Origin: a virus
DNA length: 28,443 nt
Virus record (IMG/VR): IMGVR_UViG_3300009076_000032
Coordinates: 1 to 28,443 of that record
Strand: one strand, 5' to 3'
The stretch's first letter is position 1, and every line of letters starts with the position of its first letter. Shown in pieces: positions 9,055 through 28,138 of the stretch. Made by a program: the position numbers and the translations under genes. The notes beneath the pieces are model-generated. The model saw only the letters and a list, made by a program, of their open reading frames with translations, was not told the DNA's origin and searched no databases.

Positions 9055-12000
9055 ATGGATATAAATAAAATTTTTATTGGCGGCAAGATGAATAAAAGTC
9101 TTGACGAGAGATATATACCTAAGGGTGAATACCTTCATGCGGAGAATGTAAGGATCAATTCTGATGAGACAGGGGAAGCAGGTGTTATAACTACAGCTCT
9201 AGGTAAGAACGAGATAACTGACTTTGGTTTTGGAGATTCTCAAAAATGTATAGGAGCTTTTGCTGATGAACAAAGAGATACCATATACTGGTTTGTTACA
9301 ACAACATCAGGAACAAAAACTGACTACATAGTGTCCTTCAATGTTGAGACGGGGGTTCAAAGGGTTCACTTAAAAACCTTTAACCTACTAAACTTTGACG
9401 AATCTCATTTAATAAATGACATAAACCTCATAGATGACCTTCTTTTCTTTACTGACAATAAGAATCCTCCTAGAAGGATAAACATAAAAGAGAACTATCC
9501 TGAACCAATTTCAGGTGTAGACCAAACAGTGGAAGATGACATATCTGTTATCGTAAAACCCCCTGTTAGTTCTCCTACAATAAATCTAGTAAAAACAACA
9601 AAGAAAGATAATTACATAGAGGATAAATTTATAAGGTTTGCGTACAGGTATAAGTATGTTAATGGAGAGTACTCAGCACTTTCTGAGTTCTCTGATTTAG
9701 CGTTCAGCCCAGGAGGTTTCGAAGTTGATTACAGGAACTACAACTTAAAAGGGATGCAGAACAAATACAACTCTGTTAACTTAACTATAAATACAGGACC
9801 GAAAAGAGTGGTTGGTGTAGATGTTTGTTTTAAGGTATCTACCTCAAATATAATAAACGTTATTGATAAGTACAACAAAGAAGATGAGGGTTGGACGGAC
9901 AATAATGAAGTATCTTTGGTTTTTGATAACCAGAAAATATATACAACACTACCAGAGAGTGAGTTATTAAGGTTGTATGATAATGTCCCTAGGAAAGCAA
10001 AAGCACAAACAACTATAGGTAACAGGATTATGTATGGTAATTATGTTGATGGACATGATGTGGGTGTGAAAATAGATTACACGACAGAACTGGTAAGTAA
10101 CAATATTGGTTTACAATCACCTGCTCCAAGTACTAGTGAGGGGGACTCTTATACATTAGAAACCACTACTAATATTGATGACTGTACATTAGTTGTTGAT
10201 TTGTCTGATATCGAAATGAGAACAGGTGGTGCAATTAGCATATCTGTAAGTATAGACCACTCTGCTTTTGGAGGAGATGCATCTTATTCTGATGGACCAG
10301 AAAGTACATTCAGAGGTTCTGTCGACTTTGTGTTTCCAGTAAATTATTACTCTGCTCAAGAGTTGGTTGAAGATACTAGGTTCATAAGCAAAATAAATTC
10401 AGACCTTCCTATAAGTGAGGCTGGTGATGGTAATAGTTTAAAGGATTTGTTCTATAATGCTATTACTCCTAAAATAGGATGGGAGTTAGTAGGTGCTGGT
10501 GTGGCTTCAGATACTGAAAACTTTTTGATTTCTCATAATGATAACAGTTTATTTATACAGATACCTGCTTTAAAGTTTAGAGAAACAGCAAACCCAACCG
10601 TGTATGCTTATGAGTATTTATTCTCTTCTTCTCTTGACATCGATGTGTACAAGTTATCTAAACTACAGAGCCTTCACAGTAACAGAGATTATGAATTAGG
10701 TATTGTTTATTTAGATGAGTACAATAGAGCAAGTACTGTTTTAACATCTCAAAATAACACAATAAACGTTCCTGCTTCATCAAGCGCTCTGAAGAACAAT
10801 ATACGCTCAACAATAAAGAATACAGCTCCATCATGGGCTAAAAGATATAGGTTTGCTTTAAAGTCAAGCAAAGGAAGTTATGAAACAATATACAGCAACC
10901 AGTTTGCGTATGACTCAGAACAAAGTGCTTGGTGGTGTAAGTTAGAAGGAGATAACCAAACAAAAGCTAAGAAAGGAGACACCTTAATAGTTAAAACATC
11001 TGCTTCAGGTCCAGCATCTGGATTGATTAAAACAAAGATACTAGAATTAGATGTTAAGCAAGATGACTTCTTAAATAATAATGAGCTGACAGGTGTTTAC
11101 ATGAAAATAAAGCCAAAAGGTTTTTCTGTTAATCAAGAAGACATCCCAATTATAAGTTACGGTACTTGTGGAAAAGATGTAAAAAATAGAGACATTGTGT
11201 ACTCTACATCTGAAGAGAATCCAGATTATACTGTAGGTGGTTCTGAACTACAATACAGAGAGTACAGTATACCAGCGGGGTCAATTGTTAGGTTTGAAAT
11301 AATAACATATCAGTACGGAGATTTTAACAGTAGGTTTGTATTTGAAAGGTCTTTTACTGCTACGAGTGATTACGATAACATGTATGACTTCATTGCAGGA
11401 GAGAATATTGATTTCAATCTTCCAACCAACGACCCTGGAGCTGAATCTGCTCAAGGGCTAGAGGTTGAGGCAGTATGGATAAATACAGTTGGGACATACG
11501 ATGACTTTAATGGAGAGGTAATAGGTTTTGAGCACCAAAACTTAAACATTACTGACCCTGTAAACTTGACCTCTAGACTACAAATTAGGTACTACAGGAA
11601 CAGTGTAACTGGTGAAGCGTGTTTAGGATTCAGTAATCCGCAATCTTTTTATCACGATAATCACTTCCTTTTTGCTAGTACACTTAGGAACGCATACATG
11701 AATGTAGATATTGAGGTTGTGAAGTCTGGTGGTCTTTTAGTTTTAGAGACCGTACCTATTGAGTCTGATAATGAAATATATTACGAAAGTAACAAAAGTT
11801 ACCCTATTGATGAGAATGGACTACATGAAGGAAACGTTCAAAACCAAACCAGTAGTCAAGATGCTATAGTTGATGTTAATATATTTAACTGCTTCTCTTT
11901 TGGTAATGGTGTTGAGAGCTTCAAAATAAATGATGAACTTGAGAAACCAGGTTTCTTGATGGGTGCTAGAATAACAGCTGTTTCTGAACAGGACTACAAG

Positions 12001-13806
12001 GAGGCTCACAGGTATGCAGATATTACTTATAGTGGTATATACAACGAGGATACAAACATAAATAAACTAAATGAGTTCAACCTTGCGTTATCAAACTTTA
12101 GTGTACTAGAGAAGTCTTTTGGTCCAATAGAGAAGATGCATGCTAGGTCTTCTGATATATTGGTATTGCAAGAGGATAAGATATCTACAGTTTTAGCTAA
12201 TGGTAAAAACCTTTTCTCTGATGCTTCTGCCGGAGGTGCTATTATAAATACTCCTGACGTACTAGGAACACAAGTAGTACGATTTGAAGAGTATGGAATA
12301 AGTAATAACCCAGAGAGCTTTGCTGCTTATGGTTATGATGTATTTTTTACGGACACAAAAAGAGGAGCTGTAATAAACCTTAGAGGTGATCAGATGAATG
12401 TGATATCAGATTTAGGTATGGGATCTTGGTTCAGGGATGAGTTTGTTACTAGTAAGAAAAAAATGAAATTAGGAGCATTCGATGCTTACACTAAAGAATA
12501 TGTTCTTTCTGTAACAGATACTGAAATAGTAGAAGAAGCGTACGAAGTTGATTGCGGAACCAAAATAACAAAAACAAATTCTACGGATACGTTTAGCTAT
12601 ACAGTTAACCTGAATCACGTAGTAGGTTCATACGATGTAGATTATACTGTAACATCTGGTTCAATAACAGTTGTAGCAACATACAATGATGTAGAGGTTA
12701 AGAATGAAACATTTACTAGTAGTGGTACGTTTAGTTTAAGTAAAAGTCAAATTGACGTAAATGAACTTAAAGTTAGCATCACATCAGTAGCGGCAGATTA
12801 CTCATTCACAGTTGGCTGTGTTCAACCTCAGACATTAACTATTATTAGTATAACTAAGAACCACGTAAGTAGAGATGGTAAGACTATACACCATGAGTTT
12901 ACTTGGAATGATGGCTCAATTCAAGGAACTACTCAGGACAGCTTAATATCAATTAACGAAGGTCCGGTATCTTCTTATACCACATTATCAGGTATTGAGT
13001 CCTTTGGACCTATACCTTTAGAGGGTGCTACAGTAACAATGAGGTCTGTTAAAGAGCTTGGTGATTCCTTAGTGTTTAACTCTGATAGGTTTAAGTACTT
13101 GGTGTCTGACACACTTTATTATCGTTATCAAATCAATGACTTGTACCCACTACTTCAAAATAGTGGTACAGTAGCAAACCCTAGTGACGGAGTTTACGAG
13201 TCTTCTTTTACTTACAATAATACAAGTAATCATCAATACCTTTACTTAGTATGGGAGTATATTGATTCAGGAGAGGCTCAAGACTTACCTCCAGTAATAA
13301 CATTGTTAGGGCCTAACCCTTATAACATTGTTACTAATGACCCATACACTGAGTATGGAGCAACAGCTGTAGACCCTGAAGAAGGAGATGTTTCTGATAA
13401 CCTAGTGATAAATTCTGCCGCTGTTAACACTTCTGTTGCAGGAACTTACTCGGTTACATATAATGCTAGTGATGATGCAGGTAATGCAGCTGACGAGGTA
13501 ACAAGGTCTGTTGTAGTAGCTGAAGCATCCGGTAGCTCTGATAAGTGTAGAAACGTTTACATTCCAGACACTGTAACTATAGACCCTAGTGTAGATGTAT
13601 TCTACTACACTCAGTCAGGTATAGTTGTTTCAACTATAATTAATCAAACACAATCAACGGAAGGATTAGACGGTATTATATACCATTTATGTAGTTCAAC
13701 AGTTCCTCAGATTGGGTACAACGGAGGTGCTGCTAACAACTTACCTGCAGGTGTTACTGTTACAACAAACGGAAACTGTACAAATAATTTTGAATGTAGT
13801 TTATAA
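9055..13806 (+). CDS. Tail stabilisation (muzzle) protein with C-terminal Ig-like domain
   Basis: A 1583-residue protein that likely forms the bulk of the stubby tail and plugs the neck, as the muzzle/P22 gp10-like stabilisation protein does in crAss-like phages. The N-terminus (residues about 8-50: 'GGKMNKSLDERYIPKGEYLHAENVR' region in outline, then 'ALGKNE') is the family hallmark. A beta-rich core extends to about residue 1150 with 'RYANVRS'-like propeller-type repeats not clearly resolved by eye. Residues about 1163-1262 form a Cys-flanked beta domain (VDCGTKI ... VGCVQPQ). Residues about 1412-1492 match the DUF5011-type Ig-like fold (start PPVITLLG, then YTEYGATAVDPEEGDVSDN, VAGTYSVTYNASDDAGN). 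The last 85 residues contain CRN, HLCSS and NCTNNFEC, a terminal domain with several Cys. The extra C-terminal domains probably face outward and could bind host glycans; that role is inference. Confidence 0.85.
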   Translation: MDINKIFIGGKMNKSLDERYIPKGEYLHAENVRINSDETGEAGVITTALGKNEITDFGFGDSQKCIGAFADEQRDTIYWFVTTTSGTKTDYIVSFNVETGVQRVHLKTFNLLNFDESHLINDINLIDDLLFFTDNKNPPRRINIKENYPEPISGVDQTVEDDISVIVKPPVSSPTINLVKTTKKDNYIEDKFIRFAYRYKYVNGEYSALSEFSDLAFSPGGFEVDYRNYNLKGMQNKYNSVNLTINTGPKRVVGVDVCFKVSTSNIINVIDKYNKEDEGWTDNNEVSLVFDNQKIYTTLPESELLRLYDNVPRKAKAQTTIGNRIMYGNYVDGHDVGVKIDYTTELVSNNIGLQSPAPSTSEGDSYTLETTTNIDDCTLVVDLSDIEMRTGGAISISVSIDHSAFGGDASYSDGPESTFRGSVDFVFPVNYYSAQELVEDTRFISKINSDLPISEAGDGNSLKDLFYNAITPKIGWELVGAGVASDTENFLISHNDNSLFIQIPALKFRETANPTVYAYEYLFSSSLDIDVYKLSKLQSLHSNRDYELGIVYLDEYNRASTVLTSQNNTINVPASSSALKNNIRSTIKNTAPSWAKRYRFALKSSKGSYETIYSNQFAYDSEQSAWWCKLEGDNQTKAKKGDTLIVKTSASGPASGLIKTKILELDVKQDDFLNNNELTGVYMKIKPKGFSVNQEDIPIISYGTCGKDVKNRDIVYSTSEENPDYTVGGSELQYREYSIPAGSIVRFEIITYQYGDFNSRFVFERSFTATSDYDNMYDFIAGENIDFNLPTNDPGAESAQGLEVEAVWINTVGTYDDFNGEVIGFEHQNLNITDPVNLTSRLQIRYYRNSVTGEACLGFSNPQSFYHDNHFLFASTLRNAYMNVDIEVVKSGGLLVLETVPIESDNEIYYESNKSYPIDENGLHEGNVQNQTSSQDAIVDVNIFNCFSFGNGVESFKINDELEKPGFLMGARITAVSEQDYKEAHRYADITYSGIYNEDTNINKLNEFNLALSNFSVLEKSFGPIEKMHARSSDILVLQEDKISTVLANGKNLFSDASAGGAIINTPDVLGTQVVRFEEYGISNNPESFAAYGYDVFFTDTKRGAVINLRGDQMNVISDLGMGSWFRDEFVTSKKKMKLGAFDAYTKEYVLSVTDTEIVEEAYEVDCGTKITKTNSTDTFSYTVNLNHVVGSYDVDYTVTSGSITVVATYNDVEVKNETFTSSGTFSLSKSQIDVNELKVSITSVAADYSFTVGCVQPQTLTIISITKNHVSRDGKTIHHEFTWNDGSIQGTTQDSLISINEGPVSSYTTLSGIESFGPIPLEGATVTMRSVKELGDSLVFNSDRFKYLVSDTLYYRYQINDLYPLLQNSGTVANPSDGVYESSFTYNNTSNHQYLYLVWEYIDSGEAQDLPPVITLLGPNPYNIVTNDPYTEYGATAVDPEEGDVSDNLVINSAAVNTSVAGTYSVTYNASDDAGNAADEVTRSVVVAEASGSSDKCRNVYIPDTVTIDPSVDVFYYTQSGIVVSTIINQTQSTEGLDGIIYHLCSSTVPQIGYNGGAANNLPAGVTVTTNGNCTNNFECSL

Positions 13807-13815
13807 ATAATAATA

Positions 13816-14544
13816 ATGGCAAAAACATTAACATATAGTCAAAAAGTGAAGGGATGGCCTTCCTTTTATAGTTACTACCCTGAGAAGATGGTTAGTATGA
13901 ATAACAAGTTCTATTCATTCTATGGAGGAGAATTGAGTGTACATAATTACGTCGGTTCGTATTTAGGTACATCAACCCTCACAGGTGTGTTTAACGAAAA
14001 CCCTCACGATGTAAAACACTTTAAAACAATATCTACAGAGAGTGAAGGTCCTTGGACGTTTAGCTTCGAGACGGATTTAGAGAAAGGTGAGGCCAATAAC
14101 TTTGTGAAGAAAGAAGGAGAATATTTCTCAAACATAAAGACAACCACATTATCAGATTTTGCGGAAACAAATAACAGAGGAACTCAAGGTATAGGTTTTT
14201 GTACTGTTCGCTCTAGGGAAGGAGATACATTCACTGTTACTTTTGCTAACGAAATCAATAATATGATTTCAATAGGAGACTTGATTATTGCGTACAATGA
14301 AGGTACAGGTGATCAGAATAAAGTAGGGACGGTTACTAGTGTTAGTGGAAAATCTATGGAGGTGTACAGGTATGATGTATTTAGTGCAGTTGAAGTAGGG
14401 GATTTTGTTTTATTCAGTAAACCCGTTTCTATAGAGAGTTATGGTCTTAAAGGGTATTACATGAAGTATACTTTATCGAAAACATCACAAGTCCCAAGCA
14501 GTGTGTTTAGTATTGGTACTAGTTTATTTAAGAGTTATTCATAA
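13816..14544 (+). CDS. Tail-hub-like conserved structural protein
   Basis: A 242-residue protein directly after the muzzle gene. Its N-terminus (residues about 12-45: 'GWPSFYSYYPEKMVSMNNKF' followed by YSFYGGELSVHN) is a strong signature that I recognise from a conserved structural protein of crAss-like and other Bacteroidota podoviruses. The C-terminal half contains two VGD/IGD beta motifs (about residues 153-195, 'SIGDLIIAYNEG' and 'VEVGDFVLFSK') typical of small beta barrels in tail proteins. Its position between muzzle and ejected proteins suggests tail hub or tail tip. No enzymatic residues are visible. The start ATG follows the AT-rich leader AATAATAATA. Confidence 0.72.
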   Translation: MAKTLTYSQKVKGWPSFYSYYPEKMVSMNNKFYSFYGGELSVHNYVGSYLGTSTLTGVFNENPHDVKHFKTISTESEGPWTFSFETDLEKGEANNFVKKEGEYFSNIKTTTLSDFAETNNRGTQGIGFCTVRSREGDTFTVTFANEINNMISIGDLIIAYNEGTGDQNKVGTVTSVSGKSMEVYRYDVFSAVEVGDFVLFSKPVSIESYGLKGYYMKYTLSKTSQVPSSVFSIGTSLFKSYS

Positions 14545-14595: not shown

Positions 14596-15306
14596 ATGAT
14601 AGGAATTATTTCTGCAGGACTAGGTCTTCTTGGTTCTGGAATGTCTATAATAGAAAGTATAGAAGCAAAGAAAAGACAGAGAGATGCTGATAAGGCAGCT
14701 GATATAGCTTTAAGACAAGCAAAGAAAGAATTATCTGTAAACAGAATGGAAGGTATTCAGGTACCTATAGAGTCTTACAACCAAGCAATGAGAGCGGTTA
14801 CCGCACAACAAATGCAGGCTGTTGAGGGACTAAGAGAGTCTGGTCAAAGGGCTGTAGCAGGTGGTATTGGAAGAGTAGGTGCAGTAGGTCAGGATGCAGT
14901 AGAGCAGTATAGACAACAAATGGATAAGGCACTTGCTCAGAGAGATTTACTTATAGCTCAAGAGGATGCGAGAATCGACCAATCATTAGCAGAGATATCA
15001 CTAGGAGAAGCGAAAGGAGCTATGGCTGCATCACAACAAAACCAACAAGTGGCAGCACAACAAATGACTAGCGCTGTTTCTGGTTTGGGAGCTGTTGCTA
15101 ATAACCTTTATAAGTACAGTGACTTATACAAGAAAACAGATGATGATACTACTCAAAATAATGATGATAATACTCAAGTTAATAATGATACCACTCAAGT
15201 TAATAATGATAAGACTCAGCCTATTAGGAAAGAGTCTTTAAATGCTTACGGCGTTAAGGGATTTATTAATAATGACCGACAAAAGTACCTTAACCCCCCT
15301 TTTTAG
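14596..15306 (+). CDS. Internal virion (ejection) protein, T7 gp14-like
   Basis: A 236-residue protein with the layout of small podoviral ejection proteins. A Gly/Ile/Leu-rich hydrophobic N-terminus (residues 1-22, 'MIGIISAGLGLLGSGMSI') is followed by a long Ala/Gln/Lys/Glu helical region (about 25-165) with many AxxQ patterns. The tail (about 180-236) is disordered and N/D/T/Q-rich, with three seven-residue repeats. Known proteins of this type leave the virion and insert into the host membrane to help form a DNA channel; that role is inferred here from composition and position before two larger cargo genes. It stops 13 nt before the next gene. Confidence 0.72.
   Translation: MIGIISAGLGLLGSGMSIIESIEAKKRQRDADKAADIALRQAKKELSVNRMEGIQVPIESYNQAMRAVTAQQMQAVEGLRESGQRAVAGGIGRVGAVGQDAVEQYRQQMDKALAQRDLLIAQEDARIDQSLAEISLGEAKGAMAASQQNQQVAAQQMTSAVSGLGAVANNLYKYSDLYKKTDDDTTQNNDDNTQVNNDTTQVNNDKTQPIRKESLNAYGVKGFINNDRQKYLNPPF
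15151..15213 (+). repeat. 21-bp in-frame tandem repeat (3 copies)
   Basis: Units at 15151-15171, 15172-15192 and 15193-15213 encode TQNNDDN, TQVNNDT and TQVNNDK. The last two share 19 of 21 bases (ACTCAAGTTAATAATGATA). They form a polar, probably disordered linker in the ejection protein. Confidence 0.85.
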
Positions 15307-15319
15307 ATAAACTATAAAT

Positions 15320-17014
15320 ATGGCATACTACGGATTTCAAAAAGAAAAAAATATAGATAAGTCTATTATAGATTGGTCAAGTATTACTAAGAAAATATCT
15401 GATGACTTAATCTCTACAAGTGAGGATAGACAAAAACAAAGGAATGAACTTGAGGATACTCAGGTTAAGAACATAAACACCATAAAGGATTATGTTCCAG
15501 GTGAAGACACAGACATGAATTCATTTGTGTTGGAGCAATCTCAGAGCACTCGTGGTTTTTTGTCAGCTATACATAAACAGATGACAAGTGGTAAAATATC
15601 TGTTGACAAAGCTAAAAGAATAAAGCAGAGGGTAATGAACTCCTGGGGTAGTGTAAGTGAAGCTAGTAAAACATTTCAAGCAAACGCTAAGAGGCTTGGT
15701 GATTCTAAAGGAAAAGCTAATGAAGCTCTTTTAAATATTATGGGTTTAAATGCTGACCTAAATAGCAAGCAAATATATCACGACCCAGAGACAGGAGAGG
15801 GATACTATGTTGATGTTGATAAAAAAACAGGAGAAGTTGACTTAAGTACAGCTAAACCTATATCAGCAATAAACAATGTTCAGCGACAAACAAAACAGTA
15901 CGTTGACGTACCTGCCGAAACAGCTGAAATTGCTAAAAAAGCTCCTAAAATAAAGTTAGCTATAAATAGCACAACTGACATAAGCTCCGCACTTCAAAGT
16001 AAGGCTTACACAGATTACTTAGATAACGCTGTTAAGGCAAAGCTATCAGACGATGAAAGAATGGTATCAGTAGGTCTAGATTTCCTTGACATGGAATACA
16101 CTGTTGATGGTGAAGGTTCTTCAAATACAACTATTACTTACGACAAGGTAACAGGTTTTAAACCTGACGGTACACCTATATATAAAGAAGAAAAAGTAAG
16201 TCTAGGTAAAATAAATTTTAACTCAAGTACAGGGAAAGCAGAACTAACTCCCGAGCAGAGACGGGTAATAAAAGACGGTTACAAGAACGCCATAATAGGT
16301 CAGTTACCAAGAGAAACTAGTAAACAGTATGTAGACCCAAGGTCAACAAAGAAATCTCCTGGAGAAAAAGCTGTAGCAAATTCTGTAGATTTAATAAACA
16401 GATATGTATACGATGGAGATGTCGATGCCTTACAAAGCGCATTAACATCCTTAAAGAACTCACCATATGTTAGTGTAACGAAGCCTGATGCAAACGGTGT
16501 AATACAGTTAAACAAGTCTGATGGTACATACGATAAATTCAATACAAAAGATAGAGGAGCATTTGCTGCAGGAGAACAGTTAGCAGGTTTCTTGGGAATT
16601 GGAGGAGAATATAAAGGAAGAAAAAATGCTAAAGACATTTTAAACCCTAACGTACTTACTACTAAATCTACTGCATTTACACAAAGATATTCATTAACAC
16701 CTAAAGATGAAAAACAGTTCCAAGTTGCTTTGTCTCCAACTAAAGATGCATTTGGGGAACCAACTAACCCACCTACGAGAGATGCTGTTAATGAATCAAT
16801 AAAATCTGTTGCTAGTAAATTAGGTGTACCTACAGATAAAGTCTCAGTGAGTGCAGATAAGGATGGAAATTTAGTCATAATGTACTATGAAAATAATGTT
16901 GAGAAAGGTAAAGAAATAGGTGTTGTAGGACAAACTAGTACTACAGAAATAATAAAACAACTTGAATCAATTGGAGGATTTACTAGATCTAAAGGATCGA
17001 TGTCTGGATATTAA
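15320..17014 (+). CDS. Putative virion cargo / internal protein, unknown function
   Basis: A 564-residue polar protein between two likely ejected proteins. It has no Cys that I see, no signal peptide and no convincing membrane segment. The N-terminal 150 residues are helical and charged (for example 'SKIDVDKAKRIKQRVMNSW'-type segment at about residues 95-110). The middle holds a beta-like stretch (about 255-305, 'VSVGLDFLDMEYTVDGEG' onwards). The C-terminus resembles a small alpha-beta domain ('KLGVPTDKVSVSADKDGNLVI', about 498-518 in outline). I do not recognise a named family. Gene order matches the cargo-protein region of crAss-like genomes, so a packaged internal protein is the best inference. 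Confidence 0.6.
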   Translation: MAYYGFQKEKNIDKSIIDWSSITKKISDDLISTSEDRQKQRNELEDTQVKNINTIKDYVPGEDTDMNSFVLEQSQSTRGFLSAIHKQMTSGKISVDKAKRIKQRVMNSWGSVSEASKTFQANAKRLGDSKGKANEALLNIMGLNADLNSKQIYHDPETGEGYYVDVDKKTGEVDLSTAKPISAINNVQRQTKQYVDVPAETAEIAKKAPKIKLAINSTTDISSALQSKAYTDYLDNAVKAKLSDDERMVSVGLDFLDMEYTVDGEGSSNTTITYDKVTGFKPDGTPIYKEEKVSLGKINFNSSTGKAELTPEQRRVIKDGYKNAIIGQLPRETSKQYVDPRSTKKSPGEKAVANSVDLINRYVYDGDVDALQSALTSLKNSPYVSVTKPDANGVIQLNKSDGTYDKFNTKDRGAFAAGEQLAGFLGIGGEYKGRKNAKDILNPNVLTTKSTAFTQRYSLTPKDEKQFQVALSPTKDAFGEPTNPPTRDAVNESIKSVASKLGVPTDKVSVSADKDGNLVIMYYENNVEKGKEIGVVGQTSTTEIIKQLESIGGFTRSKGSMSGY

Positions 17015-17018
17015 ATAA

Positions 17019-20000
17019 ATGATAATGAACGAAGAAGCATTAAAACAATTATATACACTTTCTAAAGAAGAAGGTTATAACAAAACATTTGAAGAGTTTA
17101 AGTCCTTAATGTCTCAGAACTCTGATGCAGTAAATACAATGTACAAGACAGCTCAGTCAAATGGTTATGAAAAAAATATTGAAAGCTTTGAGATTTTAGT
17201 TGGCTTAAAAAAAAAAGAAAATTTACAGGATATTTCTCCAATGGAAGATATGGCTTCACCTACGGAGATTACCTTTTCGGATGCTTCAAAAATAATAGAA
17301 AAAGATGAGGAAGTTGCTATATCTGAAGTAAACTCATTACTTGCTGGAAAAGGTTTTTCAGTACAAGAAACAGGAGCAGGAGATGCTTTAAAGATTGTAG
17401 ACAATATAACAGGTGTAGAAACTGAGATAGACTTACAGCCTATTGATTTTTTTGGAGGAAACGAAGAAAAAGAAAAACAAACTAATAAACTACTAGCCTT
17501 AGTAAACTCCAAGAATACATTAAAAAGAAGAGCACTATCTGACAACACGCTTTCTGGATTTATAGAAAACAAAAATAAATATCTAGCGAAACTAGAGGAT
17601 GACTTCCCTCAGTTTACTTTTGAACGCACACCTGAAGGTGTCAAAGTGTCTAAAGGAGATTCAACTGAAACCTTTGACTTTTTTGTAGGTCAAGGAGGAG
17701 GTGCTACTGCTACTGAAAAATTCTCTAAAATAAACAAATTTATATTCGACAATATAGATGACAAAGAAGCGTCAGAGATATACAAAAATAAATCAGCAAA
17801 AACATATATTAAGACCATGAAAGATATTGATGCCATAAAGAGTAAGGTTGATATATCTGATGAAGTTGTTTCTAAAGATGTTTACAATAAAGATTACTTT
17901 TCGAAGTTATTTATAAGACTAGAGGCAGAGGGAATTGAATTTAACCCAGAAGCAAGAAAAGAACTAGAGAAAGGTCAGACCTACGAACCAGCAACAGAAT
18001 ATGACCCTGGTAGCCTTAAAGATTTTAATGAACAAGATATAAAGAATGGTATTCGGAAATATTTTTCTAACAATTCAGAAGCCTTAAAAGTAATAAATAA
18101 CTTCGAAAAGTATGAAAGAAGCTCTGTTCTAAAGCAAAAGATTGACAGAGCTACTAAACTGAAAATAGAAAACTATTACGACAACCTTCCAAACAGAGAA
18201 GGGGTCAGACAACTTGTTCTTCAAAAAAACAAGGATATAAATTCTAAGGAGGCTGATGTGATTACTAGGCTTGAACTAGCTAAGTCAGACTACGTAGGAA
18301 TGTTTTCATACGCGAAAGAAAAAATAGCCTCTATAGTAAAAAATAATCCTGAATTAAGTGTAAAGTTGCAATACGATGAATCAAGTAATTTAATTTCTAT
18401 TTCATATTCAGAGAAAAATAAAGAACTTGAATTATTACAGAACCAAATAAACCAGAGGTTAAGTGATTTCACTAACTTGATAAAGAAATCTGAACTAGAT
18501 TTAGGTGAGATGAATTCAGGCAAAGAAAATATAGAATATTTCTTGGATGCGTCAAAAAGAAACTACAATAATATAGACATTGCTTACACAGATTTAAAGA
18601 ACGCATCCAAAGGATTGGCGGGTGATTTTATAACTGTTGCTAGTTTAGCAAAAGAAGGTTTAGGCCTTGAAGGAATAAATATAGGAGGTGTAACACTTCC
18701 TGTAGAACTTTTAAGATCTCAAGTTAGCGCAGAGAAACAAAAAGACATGGAAAGGGTGGATCAGTTTTATGAGACCAAAAGGACTTACGATGAAGTTGAT
18801 GGTCTGGGGAACGCTATGGTGTTCTCATTAAGAGAGCTCGCTACACAGACTCCTAATATCGCTTTAGCAATTGCTACATCTGGTGCAGGAACCTCTTTAG
18901 GTCTTTCTAGGGCAGCTATATCAACCCTAGTATCTACACAGTTTGGGGTTTCATCTGCAGGAGCAAAGTATGATGAGTTAACGACTAGACAAAATTATGC
19001 TAAAACAGCCAAGAAAGGTCTAAAAGAGTTAGAACTAATAAAGGAAAACATAAGTACACAGGAATACCTAAGCCAAAAATACGAACTAGAAAGGGCAATA
19101 GAGGATGGAAATATTACACCACTACAAAAAACAGGGGCAGTTCTAGCTACAGGAGCTATTGAGTTTGGGGTTTCAAGGTTTATTGGTACTGTACCTAACT
19201 CTATCAACGTTATAAAGAATTTTAAGAAGCCAGGGAAGTTTTTGGATGATATACTAATGTCTAATAGGAAATCTGTCTTAAAGAAGCTAGGAGAAGCTGG
19301 TGGAAAGGTAACTAAGGCTACAGTAGGTGAGATAGTTGAAGAAGAGAGTATAGAAATTCTTGGTCAGGTTAGTGACTTTGCGTTACTAGGTGATAAGGTT
19401 GACTTCTCAAACCTAGATGATATACTTGTTACGTCAGTAATAACCTCTGGTGCGATGAATGTTCCAGGGATTGCTTACTCAAGTATAGTTACAAACATAA
19501 ACAATAAGAGGTACAACTCTAAGATAGAGTCAAATATAACTAGAATAAATGAGTTGAAGAAACTTTTAAAGAATCCAGACTTAAAAGAATCTAACAGAAA
19601 AAGCATACACGCCAACATAACTAATGAGATAATAAAAATATCCAATGTAGCAAGTGAAATGGAGGCTGACGCACTATTAGTTGGAGCTGATAACATAAAG
19701 GAGCTTTTAGTTATGTCAGATGTTGAGAGGTCTTTATATAAAAAAGCTGGTATAAAACCTTACGACAGTGAGCAAATAAAACAAGCAAAAATAAAGTCAC
19801 ACGTAGATTCCTTAGACAAGGAAGATGGCCAACAGTATAAAGATAACTTAAAGTACATAAGTGAAAAAAGAAACGAAATACTAGGAGACTTAAACTACGA
19901 AACAGCAATAGAGGAAGTATTTGGTGAGAAAGGAAAAGAAATTGCTGAGGAGCTAGATGACAAACTTTCTCCAAAAGAAAAGTACACAAAAGTTTATGAG

Positions 20001-23000
20001 GCTATAAAGGATGATATAAACAAAGAATCTGTAAAGGAATACAATAAAATTAAGGAGGTTGTAGATTTTGCAAACAGGATGGATGAAAACCCTGACTCAC
20101 TAACAGATGAAGAGTTTAATTTTTACACAGAAAACAAGGACTTAGTTGATAGGGTAATAACTGAAAGAAAAGATCAAAGAAAGAAGCAGGAACTATTTAC
20201 ATTGACTAACAAAGTTATAACAAATCCTGATAATTTGTCAGAAGCTGAATCAAAGCTATATGAAGATAACAAGGAATCTGTAGATAAAAATATAGAAGAT
20301 ATAAAGAAAGCAAACCCTGATGTAGTAAATCAAGTAATTGCAGCAAAGAAAGCTTTATCTGGAGTTTTGGGAGATGTTACATTCAAACTATATGAGAGTG
20401 AACAAGAGTATGCTGATACCACAGGAGAAGAAGTTGGAGACACTAGTAGTGGTGAATACAGTGTAGAGAAAAAACAAATAAGCATAAACCTAAGCAACGC
20501 TACAAGTACAACTGTCGCACACGAAGTGTTTCATGCTATATTATTGTCTAAAGGTATGAGTGACAAAGAAGCAACTCGTCTTACCAACTCTATGCTTAAA
20601 TCCGCATATAAGTTTACGTCTAAAGATTTAAAAAAGAAAATAACTGACTTCTCTAAAGGATATAAAAAATCTTTGCAAAGCGAAGAAAGTATGGCCGAGT
20701 TATTTGGTATATTGTCTAGTGAATACAAAACATTAAACAAACAAGACCAGGGTATAATAAAAAGATTTTTAGACAAGTTAGCTAAGTTATTTAAGCTTAA
20801 ACAATTTACTGATGCAGAGGTTGTAGACCTATTAAACGTATTATCAAGAAAGGTTGCTAGAGGTCAAAAAATAAAAAGCGAAGATGTAAAGGTTATTTCA
20901 GAAAAAAATAGTAAGTTTGCAAAGAAAAAAATACAAAGATATGGAAGAGATAGAAAAAGAATTACAGAACTATCCAAGTTATTGGAGACCTACACTAAAG
21001 AGACTAGCAAAACAAGGGGGATCGATAAAAGAAATGTACGAAAAACTGAAAGAGTTGGATCAGTTGACTTAGATATAATCGCAGAGTACGATCTTAACAA
21101 TATTGTAGATGACGGTATAACTAAAGTTTTTCCTAGATTTCAGGGAGTTCAAAAAGTTTATGAAATAACTAACGGTAAGGCATACAGAAAACTTATGGTT
21201 AGCTCTTTAAAAAATAGCCCGTTTGCTTCATCCGTTACAGTACACAAAGAATCAGAATTCAACGAAATGAGAATGTTCGTTACTGAAGATGGATCTACAG
21301 GTGTTACTATGGATAAAGAAGGTTTCTTAGGTGGAGCTTTTTCAAATGGATCAAGAAAAAATAATCTAAGTCAGTTAATGGTTTTAGGTATAAAAGAAGG
21401 TGCTACTACAGTTGAAGCTTTTCATACAATACTACCTGATTACTATACTAAATTTGGTTTTAAAGCAGTAGCAAAAACATCATTCAATGATGATTATAAA
21501 CCTATGATATCTAATGGATATTCTTTAAAAGATTGGGATTATGATACTTACAAAGAATTTAATAACGGTAGGCCTGATGTTGTTTTCTTTATCTATGATG
21601 GAGGAGATAGAAATACCATAGAAGATAGATTAGATACCTTCGGAGAATACCAAGAGAATACAGTAAAAGCATTTGATAAAGAAGGTTATGTAGACGCTGA
21701 AAACTTCATGCAACAAAAAGCTGTGGAATCTTTCACAACACAAGAAACACAAGACTTTAGTGTATTAGATAATATTTCAAATACTCCTGAAGACTGGGGT
21801 AGCTCTTCTGACAGGAAACAGCTTAGAACAAAGCCAGATCCTAAGACTACAATAAAAGCTTACAAGTTATTTAGAGTTTCTGAGGATCAGCCAGGGAAAA
21901 TATTTCCTTTATTTGTAGATGCTAACACACCTGTTGAAGTAGGCCTTTGGATTGATGCCGATATGGCGGAAGGCTATTCTTTTCAAGGTAAGAACGGCCA
22001 CTTCTATATACCATCAACAAGTTACGAAACTGTTAATGAATCTACAGGTAAAAAAGAGAAGAGAAAAACTGGAGCTAAAATAGAGATACCTAACGATAAA
22101 GTTAAACAAGAACTTATTGATGGAGGATTCCTTCCTAAAGGTTCTAACGCAAAGAATATAACTAGTTTAGCTAGAAGGCCAGGGTGGCATGCAGGAGACT
22201 CTCCTATGTCAACACATCTTGGTAGCAAAACAGGTGGTTCTAATATAGTAAACACAAGGTCATCTAATCAAGTATGGGCAGAGATAGAGGTTCCTGCTGA
22301 TGTCGATTGGCAAGAAATAGCTAACAGTGAAGCTAGTTTCAAGAAGAATGGGGACATGATTGTTAAGAGTGCTCAAATAACAGATAGGATACCAGAGGAT
22401 GGTTACTACAAGTATAAGACAAATCCAACAATGACGGGATCTTGGATTATATCTGGGGCAATAAAAGTAAACAGAATACTTTCTGACGAACAGGTTGCTG
22501 AGATTAATAATGATTTTGGTGTAAAGGATTTAGACAGATTAAAGCCAATGGATTTATCTAAGTACGGTTTTAAGGCAGAAAAATCTCCAGAAGGTAGAGT
22601 TAGGAAACAAACTTTTTTGACTGAGGATGTTAACAAAGCTCTTGAAGAAAAGGCAAGTCAAAAAAATAAAGTAAAAGCGACAAGAAAAATTAGAGAGAAA
22701 ATTCTTGATAGACAAACAAGAATAAAAGACTTATTAAAAGGTATTGGCTCTAAAGAGTCTCAAAGAACACATGACTTATTAGTAACAAGAGCAGGAGCTT
22801 CAGGTAACGCAAGCCTTAGGTTTAAAGAGGCCGATGAAAAAATATACAATGGGTTGTCTAAGACTGACATTGTGGACCTTAATGAGGTTATATACCTTAA
22901 AAGGATTATATCTATAAACAAAAACAGGGTAAAAAACAAAAGGCCTTTATATGTTGGTTACAAAGGTATTGACTCTACTAAGGCTGTGAGTATGCTTAAC

Positions 23001-25394
23001 ACTATAAAAGCTCAGGTTGGTTCTGAGAAGTTTAATGTACTAAAGGAAAGAGCAGACGTATACTTCGATGTCTTCAACGAAAGTCTAAAGAGAATGTACG
23101 ATGCTCAATTAATTTCAGAGGATGTATATAACAAATTAAAGGATGAAGAGTACTCTCCTATAAAGACTATAAAGTACTTGATTCCTGACAACATTAACGA
23201 TACTGAAGCAAGCAGAATAAGTAGCATAACAGGTTTAGCTCCGGATGTTATAAAGACTTTAAGTAACGAGAATAAGAACGAGATAATACTTGATTCTAGG
23301 TGGTTATTACAAAGTAACATATCAATGATTGAATCTAGGGTATTTGAGAATAGGTTGTTTAACTCTTTCTTTGATGCATACAACGAGTTAAGTAAAGAAG
23401 AAAAAGATTCATTCAGTAACATAATTAAGGAAAATCCTGTTGTAGGTAAAACTAAAGCTGGTAAACCTATTTTCTTGTATGATAACACACCTGTGCCACA
23501 AGGGTTTGCTAAATTAGAATTCGTAAAGGACGGAATAAAAACAAGCCTCGTAATGGATCAAGCTTACGCAAATCAACTACTTGACCTAAAGAAAGACCAA
23601 GGCAATATATCTCAATGGGTTAAGAAACTTACATTAGTTAATGTGTTGAGATTTATGGCAACATCAGGTAACCCTCTATTTATTGTAGGTAACACAGCTG
23701 TCGATTTTACTAACATACTGTTACTTTCAAATACTTATTCAAACAATAAATTCGTAGCCGCACCTGAACTCGCTTATGATTTTATAAAAAACTCACTAAG
23801 AAAAGGTTTCGGAACAAAAGAATACAAAGAAATCTACAAAGAGTTTATAGAACATGGGGGTAGTATGGACTTCTTATCTTCGGATGGATTGAAAGCCATA
23901 CAAGGAATAAAGTCAGAAAACTATGTGGTTAATGCTGCTACATCTACAATGAAAGGAATAGGTGGTTTACTAAGTTATCTTGGTGAGACATCTGAACTAT
24001 CCTTTAGATTAGCTGTATACGAAAAAGCTAAGCAGAACAATATAAAGAAGTTTGAAAAAGAGAACAATAGAAAACCTACAGAAAAAGAATTACAAGACAT
24101 AATGTTCTCCTCTGCAAGAGAATCTAGAGAGACAATTGACTTCAATCAAGGTGGATCAGTAGTTAAACAGTTTGACCAAGTTTTTCCATACTTAAATGCT
24201 GCTACTCAAGGTTTTAGAAAAGGTGTTGACTTTGCTAACGATAATCCTAAACAGTTTGCTTCAAATGTATTACAGTTTATGATTTTCTCTGGAGGACTTG
24301 CAGCAGCTTCAATGATGATGTTGTTTAAAGCTTTAGATGATGAAGATGATGTTAACGATGTATTTAAGAGTATAAGCCAATATGAAAAATCAAATTATCA
24401 TATATTCTTTACTGGAAAAAGAACTGAAGACGGAGAGTTTGATTACATTAGAGTAAAGAAATTGCCGCTACTTTCTGTTGCTGCAACAATGGCGGAACAA
24501 CTAACAATAAAGACATTGATGAGTAGTAGAGGTATTGATTATGATATGAATACAGAAGCTCTTGGAAAGAGTATTGAAAGCGCTTTACCATTTGTTCCAA
24601 CTCTAAAGAATGTTCTAACAAGAAACCCTGTACTTTCTGCTTTAATAACAGGATACACAAATTATGACTTGTTTTATGACCAAGAGGTATTTAGAAATCC
24701 TAAAAACCTAAAGTTAGAAGATAGAGCTAAAGGGGCTTATGATGACAGGGTGGCTACTATATACAAAGACTTAGGTAATGTGTTTGACTTCTCTCCTAAG
24801 ATAGCTCAAGCTTCTATAGAGAAAATTATAACAAGCGAAAACACTAACCCATTAGTAGGGTTGTTTTACTCTGGTTATGATAAAATGTTTAAGGAAGATA
24901 CTGAGTTAGGTAAAGAGTTAGATGGTGTTGTAAATAATGTTCTAAAGAGTTCTAAGAGAAAAGTTTTAAGAACCACAAACAAAAAACTTATAACTTATGC
25001 TGAAGATGATTTTGCTGAAATGGAAGAGAAGGCCATTGAGACAGAAATTTATAGAAAAGAGACAAAGATAAAGAACGCTATAAAAAACAATGACCTAACT
25101 CAAAAAGAATTAAAGGATTTGATAGTTGAGAACTTTGAACCTATTGACTACAAGAGATACTGGAAGAAGTTTACTACATATGCTAGAACAAAGGATGTTG
25201 ATTACTCTATACTTGATATAATTTATGAGCAAAACCCTGAGGTGCAAGGACTTAAATTGTATAATAAATTTGGAGCTGACCTAGACGACAAGGAAAAGAG
25301 GGAATTATCAAAAGTATTTAGAGCAGCAAAAAGAAAGTGGTCTAAAAAAGGATTGTACTACTACAAGAAAAAGATACGAGAAATGGAAAAGTAA
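17019..25394 (+). CDS. Giant multidomain virion-ejected 'polyvalent'-type protein with metallopeptidase motif
   Basis: A 2791-residue protein, last gene of the late block, probably packaged and injected. Visible parts in order: two N-terminal repeats of the pattern LY..(16)..GY....E.F..L (residues about 11-60); a Gly/Ala/Ser-rich, potentially membrane-active segment (about 598-655, 'IALAIATSGAGTSLGLSRAA'); a charged helical region with a duplicated about 46-residue unit (NPDSLTDEE..YTENK near 1024, NPDNLSEAE..YEDNK near 1069); a zincin motif HEVFH at 1168-1172 with a likely third ligand E1227 in ESMAE; a GNAT-like segment ending YYTKFGFKAV (about 1380-1530); a domain beginning KLFRVSEDQPGKIFPLFVD (about 1616-1830), which I associate with large phage and mobile-element polyvalent proteins; and a C-terminal region (about 2100-2490) resembling LPD38, with ARESRETIDF and FPYLNAATQGF. 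No RNA polymerase DxDGD motif is visible. ATG 17019 or 17025 could be the start. Confidence 0.75.
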   Translation: MIMNEEALKQLYTLSKEEGYNKTFEEFKSLMSQNSDAVNTMYKTAQSNGYEKNIESFEILVGLKKKENLQDISPMEDMASPTEITFSDASKIIEKDEEVAISEVNSLLAGKGFSVQETGAGDALKIVDNITGVETEIDLQPIDFFGGNEEKEKQTNKLLALVNSKNTLKRRALSDNTLSGFIENKNKYLAKLEDDFPQFTFERTPEGVKVSKGDSTETFDFFVGQGGGATATEKFSKINKFIFDNIDDKEASEIYKNKSAKTYIKTMKDIDAIKSKVDISDEVVSKDVYNKDYFSKLFIRLEAEGIEFNPEARKELEKGQTYEPATEYDPGSLKDFNEQDIKNGIRKYFSNNSEALKVINNFEKYERSSVLKQKIDRATKLKIENYYDNLPNREGVRQLVLQKNKDINSKEADVITRLELAKSDYVGMFSYAKEKIASIVKNNPELSVKLQYDESSNLISISYSEKNKELELLQNQINQRLSDFTNLIKKSELDLGEMNSGKENIEYFLDASKRNYNNIDIAYTDLKNASKGLAGDFITVASLAKEGLGLEGINIGGVTLPVELLRSQVSAEKQKDMERVDQFYETKRTYDEVDGLGNAMVFSLRELATQTPNIALAIATSGAGTSLGLSRAAISTLVSTQFGVSSAGAKYDELTTRQNYAKTAKKGLKELELIKENISTQEYLSQKYELERAIEDGNITPLQKTGAVLATGAIEFGVSRFIGTVPNSINVIKNFKKPGKFLDDILMSNRKSVLKKLGEAGGKVTKATVGEIVEEESIEILGQVSDFALLGDKVDFSNLDDILVTSVITSGAMNVPGIAYSSIVTNINNKRYNSKIESNITRINELKKLLKNPDLKESNRKSIHANITNEIIKISNVASEMEADALLVGADNIKELLVMSDVERSLYKKAGIKPYDSEQIKQAKIKSHVDSLDKEDGQQYKDNLKYISEKRNEILGDLNYETAIEEVFGEKGKEIAEELDDKLSPKEKYTKVYEAIKDDINKESVKEYNKIKEVVDFANRMDENPDSLTDEEFNFYTENKDLVDRVITERKDQRKKQELFTLTNKVITNPDNLSEAESKLYEDNKESVDKNIEDIKKANPDVVNQVIAAKKALSGVLGDVTFKLYESEQEYADTTGEEVGDTSSGEYSVEKKQISINLSNATSTTVAHEVFHAILLSKGMSDKEATRLTNSMLKSAYKFTSKDLKKKITDFSKGYKKSLQSEESMAELFGILSSEYKTLNKQDQGIIKRFLDKLAKLFKLKQFTDAEVVDLLNVLSRKVARGQKIKSEDVKVISEKNSKFAKKKIQRYGRDRKRITELSKLLETYTKETSKTRGIDKRNVRKTERVGSVDLDIIAEYDLNNIVDDGITKVFPRFQGVQKVYEITNGKAYRKLMVSSLKNSPFASSVTVHKESEFNEMRMFVTEDGSTGVTMDKEGFLGGAFSNGSRKNNLSQLMVLGIKEGATTVEAFHTILPDYYTKFGFKAVAKTSFNDDYKPMISNGYSLKDWDYDTYKEFNNGRPDVVFFIYDGGDRNTIEDRLDTFGEYQENTVKAFDKEGYVDAENFMQQKAVESFTTQETQDFSVLDNISNTPEDWGSSSDRKQLRTKPDPKTTIKAYKLFRVSEDQPGKIFPLFVDANTPVEVGLWIDADMAEGYSFQGKNGHFYIPSTSYETVNESTGKKEKRKTGAKIEIPNDKVKQELIDGGFLPKGSNAKNITSLARRPGWHAGDSPMSTHLGSKTGGSNIVNTRSSNQVWAEIEVPADVDWQEIANSEASFKKNGDMIVKSAQITDRIPEDGYYKYKTNPTMTGSWIISGAIKVNRILSDEQVAEINNDFGVKDLDRLKPMDLSKYGFKAEKSPEGRVRKQTFLTEDVNKALEEKASQKNKVKATRKIREKILDRQTRIKDLLKGIGSKESQRTHDLLVTRAGASGNASLRFKEADEKIYNGLSKTDIVDLNEVIYLKRIISINKNRVKNKRPLYVGYKGIDSTKAVSMLNTIKAQVGSEKFNVLKERADVYFDVFNESLKRMYDAQLISEDVYNKLKDEEYSPIKTIKYLIPDNINDTEASRISSITGLAPDVIKTLSNENKNEIILDSRWLLQSNISMIESRVFENRLFNSFFDAYNELSKEEKDSFSNIIKENPVVGKTKAGKPIFLYDNTPVPQGFAKLEFVKDGIKTSLVMDQAYANQLLDLKKDQGNISQWVKKLTLVNVLRFMATSGNPLFIVGNTAVDFTNILLLSNTYSNNKFVAAPELAYDFIKNSLRKGFGTKEYKEIYKEFIEHGGSMDFLSSDGLKAIQGIKSENYVVNAATSTMKGIGGLLSYLGETSELSFRLAVYEKAKQNNIKKFEKENNRKPTEKELQDIMFSSARESRETIDFNQGGSVVKQFDQVFPYLNAATQGFRKGVDFANDNPKQFASNVLQFMIFSGGLAAASMMMLFKALDDEDDVNDVFKSISQYEKSNYHIFFTGKRTEDGEFDYIRVKKLPLLSVAATMAEQLTIKTLMSSRGIDYDMNTEALGKSIESALPFVPTLKNVLTRNPVLSALITGYTNYDLFYDQEVFRNPKNLKLEDRAKGAYDDRVATIYKDLGNVFDFSPKIAQASIEKIITSENTNPLVGLFYSGYDKMFKEDTELGKELDGVVNNVLKSSKRKVLRTTNKKLITYAEDDFAEMEEKAIETEIYRKETKIKNAIKNNDLTQKELKDLIVENFEPIDYKRYWKKFTTYARTKDVDYSILDIIYEQNPEVQGLKLYNKFGADLDDKEKRELSKVFRAAKRKWSKKGLYYYKKKIREMEK
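17207..17216 (+). other. Ten-adenine homopolymer inside the giant gene
   Basis: The run reads through codons TTA-AAA-AAA-AAA-GAA just after the N-terminal LY/GY repeats (residue about 63). Gain or loss of one A leads to a stop within about 30 codons in either frame. It is therefore a candidate slippage site that would yield a short product made of the repeat domain alone. Confidence 0.4.
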
Positions 25395-26029: not shown

Positions 26030-26087
26030 AATTAGGGTTGTCTTTTAACTTCTCAGTTATGATTGCTGTTATTAATAAGTGATTCAT
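25971..26087 (-). CDS. Overlapping 38-residue reading frame
   Basis: ATG at 26087-26085, TAA at 25973-25971. The product starts MNHLLITAIITEKLKDN and continues to a helical, acidic end (SLQQMLDECEGKDS). It overlaps the end of the dATP/dGTP diphosphohydrolase-like gene by 35 nt and the start of the membrane-protein frame. Its amphipathic composition looks protein-like, and it fills what would otherwise be a short gap in a tightly packed operon. No family is recognised. Confidence 0.5.
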   Translation of the reverse strand: MNHLLITAIITEKLKDNPNYVLIRSLQQMLDECEGKDS

Positions 26088-26430
26088 TTTCTAAGTATAT
26101 TTGTAGGGCTGCTAAAGCTCTCCAAGCTACCTTACCTAAGTGAAGTAACCCATCTTCATCAACAGGGTTCTGTGAGTGATCTATTAAGTGCCTGGCTAAC
26201 GCATCTTCGTTATCAGTGCTTTTACTTTTATCCCAATGCAATGGCTTGTCAGAATGATGCTGATCATTGCCTTTCTTACTAACTTTACTAACATACTTTA
26301 ATGCGTCTGGAAAATATTTAACAACACCTGTAAATACAGGTTGACTTTTTCTTGATTCGCTCTCACTAGATACTAAAGAAGTTCTTCTTGGTTGGCTCAA
26401 CATAGTTGATGTTGTAGTATATTCTGCCAT
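26053..26430 (-). CDS. dATP/dGTP diphosphohydrolase-like (MazG-fold) protein
   Basis: A 125-residue protein. Residues 35-110 match the pattern I know from phage dATP/dGTP diphosphohydrolase N-terminal-type domains (all-alpha NTP-pyrophosphatase relatives): GVVKYFPDAL (35-44), GNDQHH (54-59), HWDKSKSTDNEDALARHL (65-82) and DEDGLLHLGKVAWRALAALQ (91-110). In the family the Lys/His/Asp/Glu residues in these blocks bind metal and nucleotide, and the enzyme would hydrolyse dNTPs to dNMP and pyrophosphate. The first 30 residues are Ser/Thr-rich and probably disordered. It starts 3 nt after the phosphoesterase stop. Substrate choice cannot be read from sequence; in some phages such enzymes support 2-aminoadenine DNA. 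Confidence 0.75.
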   Translation of the reverse strand: MAEYTTTSTMLSQPRRTSLVSSESESRKSQPVFTGVVKYFPDALKYVSKVSKKGNDQHHSDKPLHWDKSKSTDNEDALARHLIDHSQNPVDEDGLLHLGKVAWRALAALQIYLENESLINNSNHN

Positions 26431-27796: not shown

Positions 27797-28138
27797 TTAA
27801 CATTCACACTGACCTAAATCCAACTTACAAGAACATATCTTAGTTTGGTCTTTAACAAACTGACCATTAATCATTCTACCTGTTCTTTGACTTATAACAT
27901 TGTAAGCAGACTCTAAACAGTCTTGTACACTCAGTCCTTGCATCTTAGCCTGTATGATAATAGTTACTATGATATCTCCGATAGCATCAATTATTTCATC
28001 CCTGTCATTTATACTCACAGCCTGAGCTAATTCAGCAGACTCTTCAACAGTCTTTATTGCTTGAGCCATAGGAGTAGCTACATCAAGTATTCCTTTATCT
28101 AACGCCCAATTCTCTACCCTTAGTATCAATTCTTCCAT
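27797..28138 (-). CDS. MazG-type nucleotide pyrophosphohydrolase with CxC...CxC tail
   Basis: A 113-residue protein. Residues 32-55 show the MazG metal-binding pattern EESAE (E32, E33, E36) followed after 11 residues by EIIDAIGD (E48, D51, D55). These enzymes split NTPs or dNTPs (or in some phages ppGpp-related alarmones) to monophosphate and pyrophosphate, altering nucleotide pools in infected cells. Length matches the single-domain phage type, which works as a dimer or tetramer. Unusually, the C-terminus ends in C102-x-C104 and C111-x-C113, which could bind a metal or form disulfides. It lies 44 nt downstream of the helicase. Confidence 0.87.
   Translation of the reverse strand: MEELILRVENWALDKGILDVATPMAQAIKTVEESAELAQAVSINDRDEIIDAIGDIIVTIIIQAKMQGLSVQDCLESAYNVISQRTGRMINGQFVKDQTKICSCKLDLGQCEC

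Follow-up and report, generated by a model that had tools for sequence, protein, structure and literature searches.

A duplicated and exchangeable N-terminal tag on a giant ejection-type phage protein varies in step with the C-terminal tail of the protein encoded before it

In phage T7 the ejectosome proteins are encoded in the order gp14, gp15 and gp16, and the large protein gp16 uses its N-terminal part, with a long 'molecular tape' (residues 157-228), to stitch and stabilise the C-terminal region of gp15, the tunnel protein (PMC8954989). The N4-like phage DEV has a three-gene ejection set of the same kind, gp73-gp72-gp71, in which gp71 is a virion RNA polymerase (vRNAP) and the unresolved C-terminus of gp72 (residues 332-521) has been proposed to bind this giant protein (PMC10925440). 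In PhicrAss001 the cargo protein gp45 is thought to exit N-terminus first (PMC10172136). What keeps ejection proteins in order, joins them to one another and fits them to their cargo is an open question, as is the contact between the tunnel-protein C-terminus and the giant protein in N4-like phages (PMC10925440). Here we describe a locus encoding a giant protein of 2791 amino acids in the IMG/VR virus record IMGVR_UViG_3300009076_000032; the window that was analysed is the complete record of 28,443 bases. This protein carries a duplicated N-terminal tag that is exchanged among its relatives and changes together with the tail at the C-terminus of the protein encoded just before it, a feature that the first-pass annotation, which had described a multidomain protein of the ejection block, had missed.

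The late genes of the window are ordered as terminase, portal, structural proteins, a 1583-amino-acid virion protein, muzzle, a 236-amino-acid protein, a 564-amino-acid protein and the giant (Table 1). The giant open reading frame (ORF) is open throughout with no internal stops, lies 3' of the TerL, portal and muzzle genes, and is followed by genes on the opposite strand. The last three genes, with sizes of 236, 564 and 2791 amino acids, have the order of the T7 set, the giant taking the third slot and the first two having putative roles assigned by position. The 236-amino-acid protein matches phrog_13764, a virion structural protein (5.6e-14), and has an N-terminal hydrophobic segment with a hydropathy peak at residues 1-19, and the 564-amino-acid protein has no significant Pfam or PHROG match. 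Neither family nor PDB sequence searches found homology between the giant and T7 gp16; it is gp16-like by position and not a member of that family. The T7 set differs in that, in the part of the report covered, neither a duplicated tag nor an exchangeable tail is described (PMC8954989), and the DEV set differs in that the giant of the window is not recognisable as a vRNAP. The closest concept is that of the polyvalent proteins, which in the sections of Iyer et al. covered here are very large multidomain proteins that carry zincin metallopeptidase, GNAT-like and LPD domains, have their genes among the late virion genes and are predicted to enter the host by injection (PMC5512222). Judged by its sequence the giant matches this concept, and delivery together with the DNA is predicted for it. 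Unlike that set, two of its modules have no Pfam match, and a duplicated exchangeable N-terminal tag paired with a tail is not described in those sections (PMC5512222).

Over its first 61 residues the giant repeats a unit of about 28-30 residues twice in tandem. The self-alignment score of this region is 57 against a maximum of 30 in 15 shuffles, and 148 internal control segments gave 42 at the 95% level and 54 at most; of 76 N-termini, 45 have a duplication above that 95% level. At residues that are identical in the two copies the codons are the same in 57% of cases. Since this barely exceeds what random use of synonymous codons would give (about 0.3-0.6 per residue), the duplication looks old and seems to have been retained at the protein level. 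KKK follows the tag in 54 sequences examined, and after most of the tags KKK and a polar linker are found. The tag units are wholly different among the proteins and include FVPPSDAV, DPLGxKK, LPxPSDVL, KPWEKY, LDLSGY, TPPLPSGYEPI, VDEFGIPIKK and longer ones. Unrelated tags are found on proteins that are nearly identical after KKK (loci L044 and L057, 99%; L021 and L030, 95%; L041 and L057, 91%) and, conversely, the same tag is found on unrelated proteins (L073 and L094, L044 and L055, L035 and L076). No Pfam domain was found in the tail and tag regions. The giant of the Desulfofustis phage LS06-2018-MD01, a phage assigned to another host phylum, begins with PENFVPAQxFLS-like repeats followed by KKK (L006:4213-8946).

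When the DNA of tag-exchanged pairs is compared, similarity is lost near the 3' end of the preceding gene, about 100 to 850 bases ahead of the start, and returns at KKK; the DNA upstream of this unmatched tract is still alignable. These exchanges bear on the possibility that the tag is a packaging signal read by the portal, the scaffold or the capsid and not by the preceding protein. The location at the N-terminal end of a protein internal to the virion, and the duplication as if for avidity, would suit such a signal, but when the tag is exchanged the upstream tail is exchanged with it and the DNA before the tail remains alignable, and a search of the other ORFs of the same loci for the tag gave nothing above noise. 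We regard a packaging signal as rather improbable.

Across unrelated backbones the type of tail tracks the type of tag. The FVPPSDAV tag is paired with the tail KW..LK.GQ.LVGPDGNTYTK, the DPLG tag with YKIKGKTYTLKQL.DMGYTEEDVKSYK, the LPxPSDVL tag with ADWKA.GW.D.QI.QGVKEGKIK and the KPWE tag with GYKF.GGDP..QKNWKK, among other pairings. Thirteen pairs with unrelated backbones share both tag and tail against a mean of 1.85 and a maximum of 8 in 5000 permutations, and end-anchored tail scores for pairs with similar tags are 5.16 against -0.08 (standard deviation 0.92); the permutations assume independent loci, an assumption that holds only in part. For the degenerate LY..GY..F class, to which the window belongs, the tail score is 2.58 against -0.08 (standard deviation 0.96, p = 0.0044). 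Tails of the FVPPSDAV and LPxPSDIL types had no BLAST match in isolated phages. In the Maribacter phage Panino (L005, 5768-7270 and 7454) the last residues of the upstream protein, KDPLGLGI, are similar to the DPLG tag type of L044 and L055, and the N-terminus of the Panino giant is a duplicated DGSL-like unit.

The best-tested pair combines the tail GYRFKGGDP....NWEKV with a tag of two PWExY copies. Tails of this KPWE type match the cultured phages F116, H66, 8P, BUCT695 and a Bradyrhizobium phage, and wherever the next gene was examined in these phages its product starts with two PW[EQ] copies; the 5145-amino-acid structural protein of phage 8P is one such product. IMG/VR was scanned once with the tag DNA and once with the tail DNA; both scans are samples, and the counts refer to the matches listed. 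In the tag scan a tail gene precedes 10 of the 11 distinct genes with an N-terminal tandem KPWE, the exception being L105, and in L159 an ORF lies between the two. The tail scan gave 115 C-terminal tails; the next gene has at least two PW motifs in 96 cases, one in 7 and none in 7, the rest being cut by the contig end, and the background rate of two PW motifs in other ORFs of the same loci is 19 of 1061 (1.8%). The 96 pairs fall into 54 upstream and 41 downstream body clusters and therefore often only the tail and the tag are common. Two of the seven tail genes without a PW tag on the next ORF, L328 and L344, are followed by other N-termini and are possible pair switches, and at the remaining five (L307, L374, L325, L389 and L398) no ORF was called at the junction. 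In Pseudomonas phage F116 (L099, 9020-15409) F116p59 is annotated with a start in a different frame; since a start at 9078 yields the tandem tag MADTSKPWEEF..EKPWEEF, there is a frame problem in the annotation or the sequence.

The covariation could also arise from linkage only, if a short junction cassette of DNA that includes the translation signals of the next gene moves as a unit and tail and tag make no contact. It fits such an origin that the two genes almost always adjoin or share a few bases, and that the WEK codons resemble a Shine-Dalgarno sequence in proteobacterial phages, as judged from the tail codons. On the other hand, the Bacteroidota-type loci L052 and L057 retain the pair with NWKK tails, and pairs survive a gap of about 40-50 nucleotides in BUCT695 and, in L159, an ORF of about 1 kb on the opposite strand that separates the tail gene from the tag gene. 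The duplication of the tag and its retention at the protein level while codons diverge also speak against linkage only, as does the finding that tails are short where the tag repeats are long and measure about 30 amino acids where the repeats are short. We consider linkage only to be unlikely, and a functional link between tag and tail to be quite probable. The ORF inserted in L159 (contig 2534682026_000001, reverse strand, about 5096-6149) encodes about 310 amino acids with zinc-ribbon-like cysteines.

The tag-tail pair sits at the junction of the tunnel protein and the next injected protein and because of this we propose that it is a coupler. On this reading the giant of this crAss-related podovirus would be its third ejection protein, a polyvalent one that travels in the head and enters the host together with the DNA. 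Its duplicated tag would dock on the tail that ends the preceding tunnel-position protein, and both proteins would thereby exit the capsid in register and remain joined in the envelope; the predicted metallopeptidase would process the giant itself, an exchangeable cassette of putative effector modules follows directly after the peptidase, and a conserved LPD38-type C-terminal part forms the fourth zone. Tag and tail would be an exchangeable matched pair drawn from a repertoire common to unrelated phages. The sequences themselves show the anatomy of the giant, the exchange of its cassette and tag, and the covariation of tag and tail; its injection, binding, cleavage and target, and direct contact of tag and tail, are inferred, and we lean towards this explanation as a whole.

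Several points weigh against it. Tag and tail are adjacent in the DNA, and co-transfer by linkage can yield covariation without binding; in proteobacterial phages the tail's WEK codons can also serve the next gene as its ribosome-binding site. The signal for the window's own tag class is modest, and the EYEG-type tags of L042, L060 and L068 share a tag type while their tails differ. We also modelled the coupler as a read-through fusion of tail and tag from five loci in which the stop is read as Trp and the linker is a few residues long. The predicted local distance difference test score (pLDDT) is 82-89 for the tail and the first PW copy but no more than about 50 in the remainder, with strands at 33-35 and 46-48 and a helix at 56-63; the model is suggestive, as this fusion is artificial, with a very short linker, only five sequences and a mean pLDDT of 63, and the model has no match in the PDB. 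For the window's own pair we consider such a link somewhat more likely than not.

More generally, we think it fairly probable that docking couples in tailed phages form an interchangeable set, each couple made of the C-terminal tail of a tunnel protein and the duplicated hypervariable N-terminal tag of the next injected protein, so that any cargo, be it a giant polyvalent protein, a lysozyme or another protein, could be hitched by the right tag, the couples being swapped as matched pairs across host phyla. The proposed pair types are many and include PWExY, FVPPSDAV, DPLG, LPxPSDIL, LDLSGY and the longer LY..GY..FEEF of the window. In polyketide synthases docking domains match the C-terminus of one protein to the N-terminus of the next. 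The likeness, a C-terminus matched to the N-terminus of the next protein by an exchangeable code, is an analogy only; there is no sequence relation and the system is a different one. In the literature searched, which was covered in part, we found no description of PWEKY or GGDP motifs or of a docking code for ejection proteins, the hits being either papers on unrelated matters or reviews that do not mention it, and the coupler would be new if confirmed.

A single near relative of the giant was found in IMG/VR, L001, which lies within the 64.7-kb contig G001. The C-terminal part of the giant is matched in Cellulophaga phage phi46:3 (gp120/gp121), in Maribacter phage Panino and in a Desulfofustis phage, and residues 1024-1297 are matched in Flavobacterium elemo phages within a 3667-amino-acid protein annotated as structural (MT497075); the homologues are annotated as virion structural proteins. 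The elemo protein is likewise the last gene of its strand block and shares the peptidase module, while its remainder is dissimilar and its N-terminus shows no clear duplication in self-alignment. In phi46:3 the homologous part is split across gp120 and gp121 by a gap of about 320 bases (L004, 10828-11148), which could be due to a frameshift, an intervening element or a sequence error. The contig G001 also carries, far apart, a GroEL gene (L009:6052-7614, minus strand, 521 amino acids, phrog_5725, 2.9e-131) and a GroES-like gene (L413:537-1097, minus strand).

The HEVFH motif and the downstream ESMAE (residues 1223-1227) that the first-pass annotation had pointed out are in place, and the block around them is conserved. 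A profile of the block found 80 IMG/VR loci, where it lies nearly always inside ORFs of about 1900-3900 amino acids when the ORF is complete; most of these 80 giant ORFs have EE(x)3E 54-59 residues after HExxH. In 81 sequences T-V-A-H-E-x-F-H, G1145, N1157, E1222 and E1223 are conserved in all and E1227 in 93%, the conservation of the HExxH part being circular because a peptide pattern, VAHE[VI]FH, had served in part to collect these loci. Independent of this pattern are the conservation of EE(x)3E and the match to the elemo phages, whose block was found separately (tblastn 5e-20, 32% identical, with HEIFH). An AlphaFold2 model from 42 sequences has the order helix, strand, two strands, HExxH helix (model residues 85-97) and a later helix (142-158) with EE..E at its start, and a pLDDT of about 93 in the core strands. 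At the level of topology this is a sheet, an HExxH helix and a helix bearing the Glu, and not an HEVFH lodged in an unrelated helix with the Glu far off; a zincin core of matching topology is described in the covered part of the polyvalent-protein study (PMC5512222). In a Foldseek search of the model PPEP-1, IrrE and anthrax lethal factor came on top and the first eleven matches were all zincins, each individually weak (E 0.19 and up), and half of the module members weakly match DUF5700, a putative zinc peptidase. Together, alignment and model predict a metallopeptidase module of the zincin type. E1227 had been taken as the key Glu, and both it and E1223 lie on the later conserved helix; by analogy with gluzincins, E1223 is the likelier third zinc ligand, E1227 then being the second residue of the E-x-x-x-E pair.

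For the target of this peptidase two readings were weighed. Processing of the giant itself is, in our estimate, evenly balanced. It is possible, and the less favoured reading, that the peptidase is an effector that cleaves a host protein; its weak fold likeness to host-targeting zincins points that way and such roles are considered in the sections of Iyer et al. covered here (PMC5512222), but the module is constant beside variable cassettes in two close relatives, which fits processing without being decisive.

These variable cassettes lie directly after the peptidase. The giant and its relative in L001 are 78% identical over residues 3-1314 and 88% over 1851-2790, whereas residues 1315-1850 have no similarity to the 358 amino acids in the equivalent place of L001. 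What L001 lacks is the GNAT-like and phrog_30118 modules, and its own replacement segment recurs after the peptidase in many relatives. The exchange of the cassette is module shuffling of the kind found in polyvalent proteins. The effector-like regions of the first-pass annotation are better described as a single exchangeable cassette, with unrelated sequence in an otherwise 78-88% identical relative. The segment YYTKFGF (residues 1475-1481), on which a GNAT-like claim had been based, is present, and the module around it has homologues in 18 relatives, where it lies before the peptidase in all 18, while in the window it lies after it. This block is also found in Microbacterium phage genes for a 'minor capsid protein' (E 4e-22) and weakly matches stand-alone phage genes annotated as acetyltransferase (E 4e-4 to 2e-2); searches of Pfam and, by profile, of the PDB gave no match. 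An acetyltransferase is plausible from these sequence matches. The second module, residues 1600-1851, matches phrog_12224 besides phrog_30118; of 194 relatives 80 loci were kept, and no relative was found in Pfam or in the PDB, including by a PDB profile search. Its assignment as an ADP-ribosyltransferase was dropped, there being no supporting match.

Of the two polyvalent-type regions that had been proposed, this module is one, and the other corresponds to an LPD38 match at residues 2447-2602 (2.2e-5) that with 25.1 bits falls below the Pfam cut-off of 27. With the peptidase, GNAT-like, phrog_30118-type and LPD38-like parts, and with homologues annotated as virion structural proteins, the description as a multidomain polyvalent protein in the ejection block holds.

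The giant occupies the position of the vRNAP subunits of gut crassviruses (PMC10172136) and of DEV gp71 (PMC10925440) and might on that ground be a highly diverged vRNAP. It has no DxDGD motif, as had been noted, and searches of Pfam, PHROGs and PDB sequences along the protein matched no polymerase; the modules recognised are of other kinds. Among the large ORFs of G001 that were examined, which are tail-fibre-like, kinase-like, and primase/helicase or helicase, no RNA polymerase was found in this possibly incomplete 64.7-kb contig, and its sole ORF of at least 80 amino acids with DxDGD is the GroES-like one. That the giant is a diverged vRNAP is very improbable. The suggestion that this lineage follows a strategy different from that of a vRNAP is compatible with these results, but it is not demonstrated by them since the records are possibly incomplete and, according to the covered part of Iyer et al., vRNAPs too belong to the polyvalent proteins and carry metallopeptidase domains (PMC5512222).

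Table 1. Features of the giant-protein locus (positions in the window)
Feature	Position	Strand	Basis
crAss-type muzzle protein	13816..14544	+	PF25729 crAss_MUZ_C, E 9.4e-8
236-amino-acid A/Q-rich protein	14596..15306	+	position of T7 gp14 / DEV gp73; phrog_13764
564-amino-acid protein	15320..17014	+	position of tunnel ejection protein (T7 gp15 / DEV gp72); gene order
C-terminal tail of preceding protein, TRSKGSMSGY	16982..17011	+	proposed docking partner of tag; evidence weaker for this class (p = 0.0044)
Giant polyvalent ejection-type protein, 2791 amino acids	17019..25394	+	position of T7 gp16 / DEV gp71; intact ORF, relatives
N-terminal tag copy 1, residues 4-31, NEEALKQLY..GY..TFEEFKSLM	17028..17111	+	self-alignment
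N-terminal tag copy 2, residues 34-61	17118..17201	+	self-alignment
KKK, residues 64-66	17208..17216	+	boundary ending tag exchange in relatives
Zincin-type metallopeptidase module (predicted), residues 1108-1290	20340..20888	+	42-sequence alignment, AlphaFold2, Foldseek
HEVFH, residues 1168-1172	20520..20534	+	
EESMAE, residues 1222-1227	20682..20699	+	E1223 predicted third zinc ligand
Exchangeable cassette of putative effectors, residues 1315-1850	20961..22568	+	dissimilar segment in L001
GNAT-like module, residues 1406-1546	21234..21656	+	phrog_2563 1.6e-7; homologues in 18 relatives
phrog_30118-type module, residues 1600-1851	21816..22571	+	phrog_30118 1.7e-47; enzyme-like domain, RPGWHxGDxP + NxVWAExE
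Conserved C-terminal region	22569..25391	+	LPD38-like stretch 2447-2602, one membrane-like helix 2417-2435 (hydropathy), alignment

Elsewhere in the window, the 372-amino-acid protein encoded after the portal gene (3768-4886) has several copies of an acidic tandem repeat, VEETSVEDT, near its N-terminus, and the 1583-amino-acid virion protein (9055-13806) has a bacterial surface Ig-like domain (PF16403, 5.5e-14) near its C-terminus, at residues 1415-1488. The opposite-strand genes include those for a protein with a dATP/dGTP diphosphohydrolase N-terminal domain and for a MazG-like pyrophosphatase (26053-26430 and 27797-28138, minus strand).

If the proposed coupling is true, the pairs would amount to a sequence code from which injected proteins could be predicted from the genome only, and they would provide simple peptide pairs for testing. 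In the window, the exchange of a cassette beside a constant peptidase marks a region in which to seek counter-defence functions. For the phages themselves, coupling by matched tags and tails would explain how very different effectors are swapped among phages while their delivery is kept.
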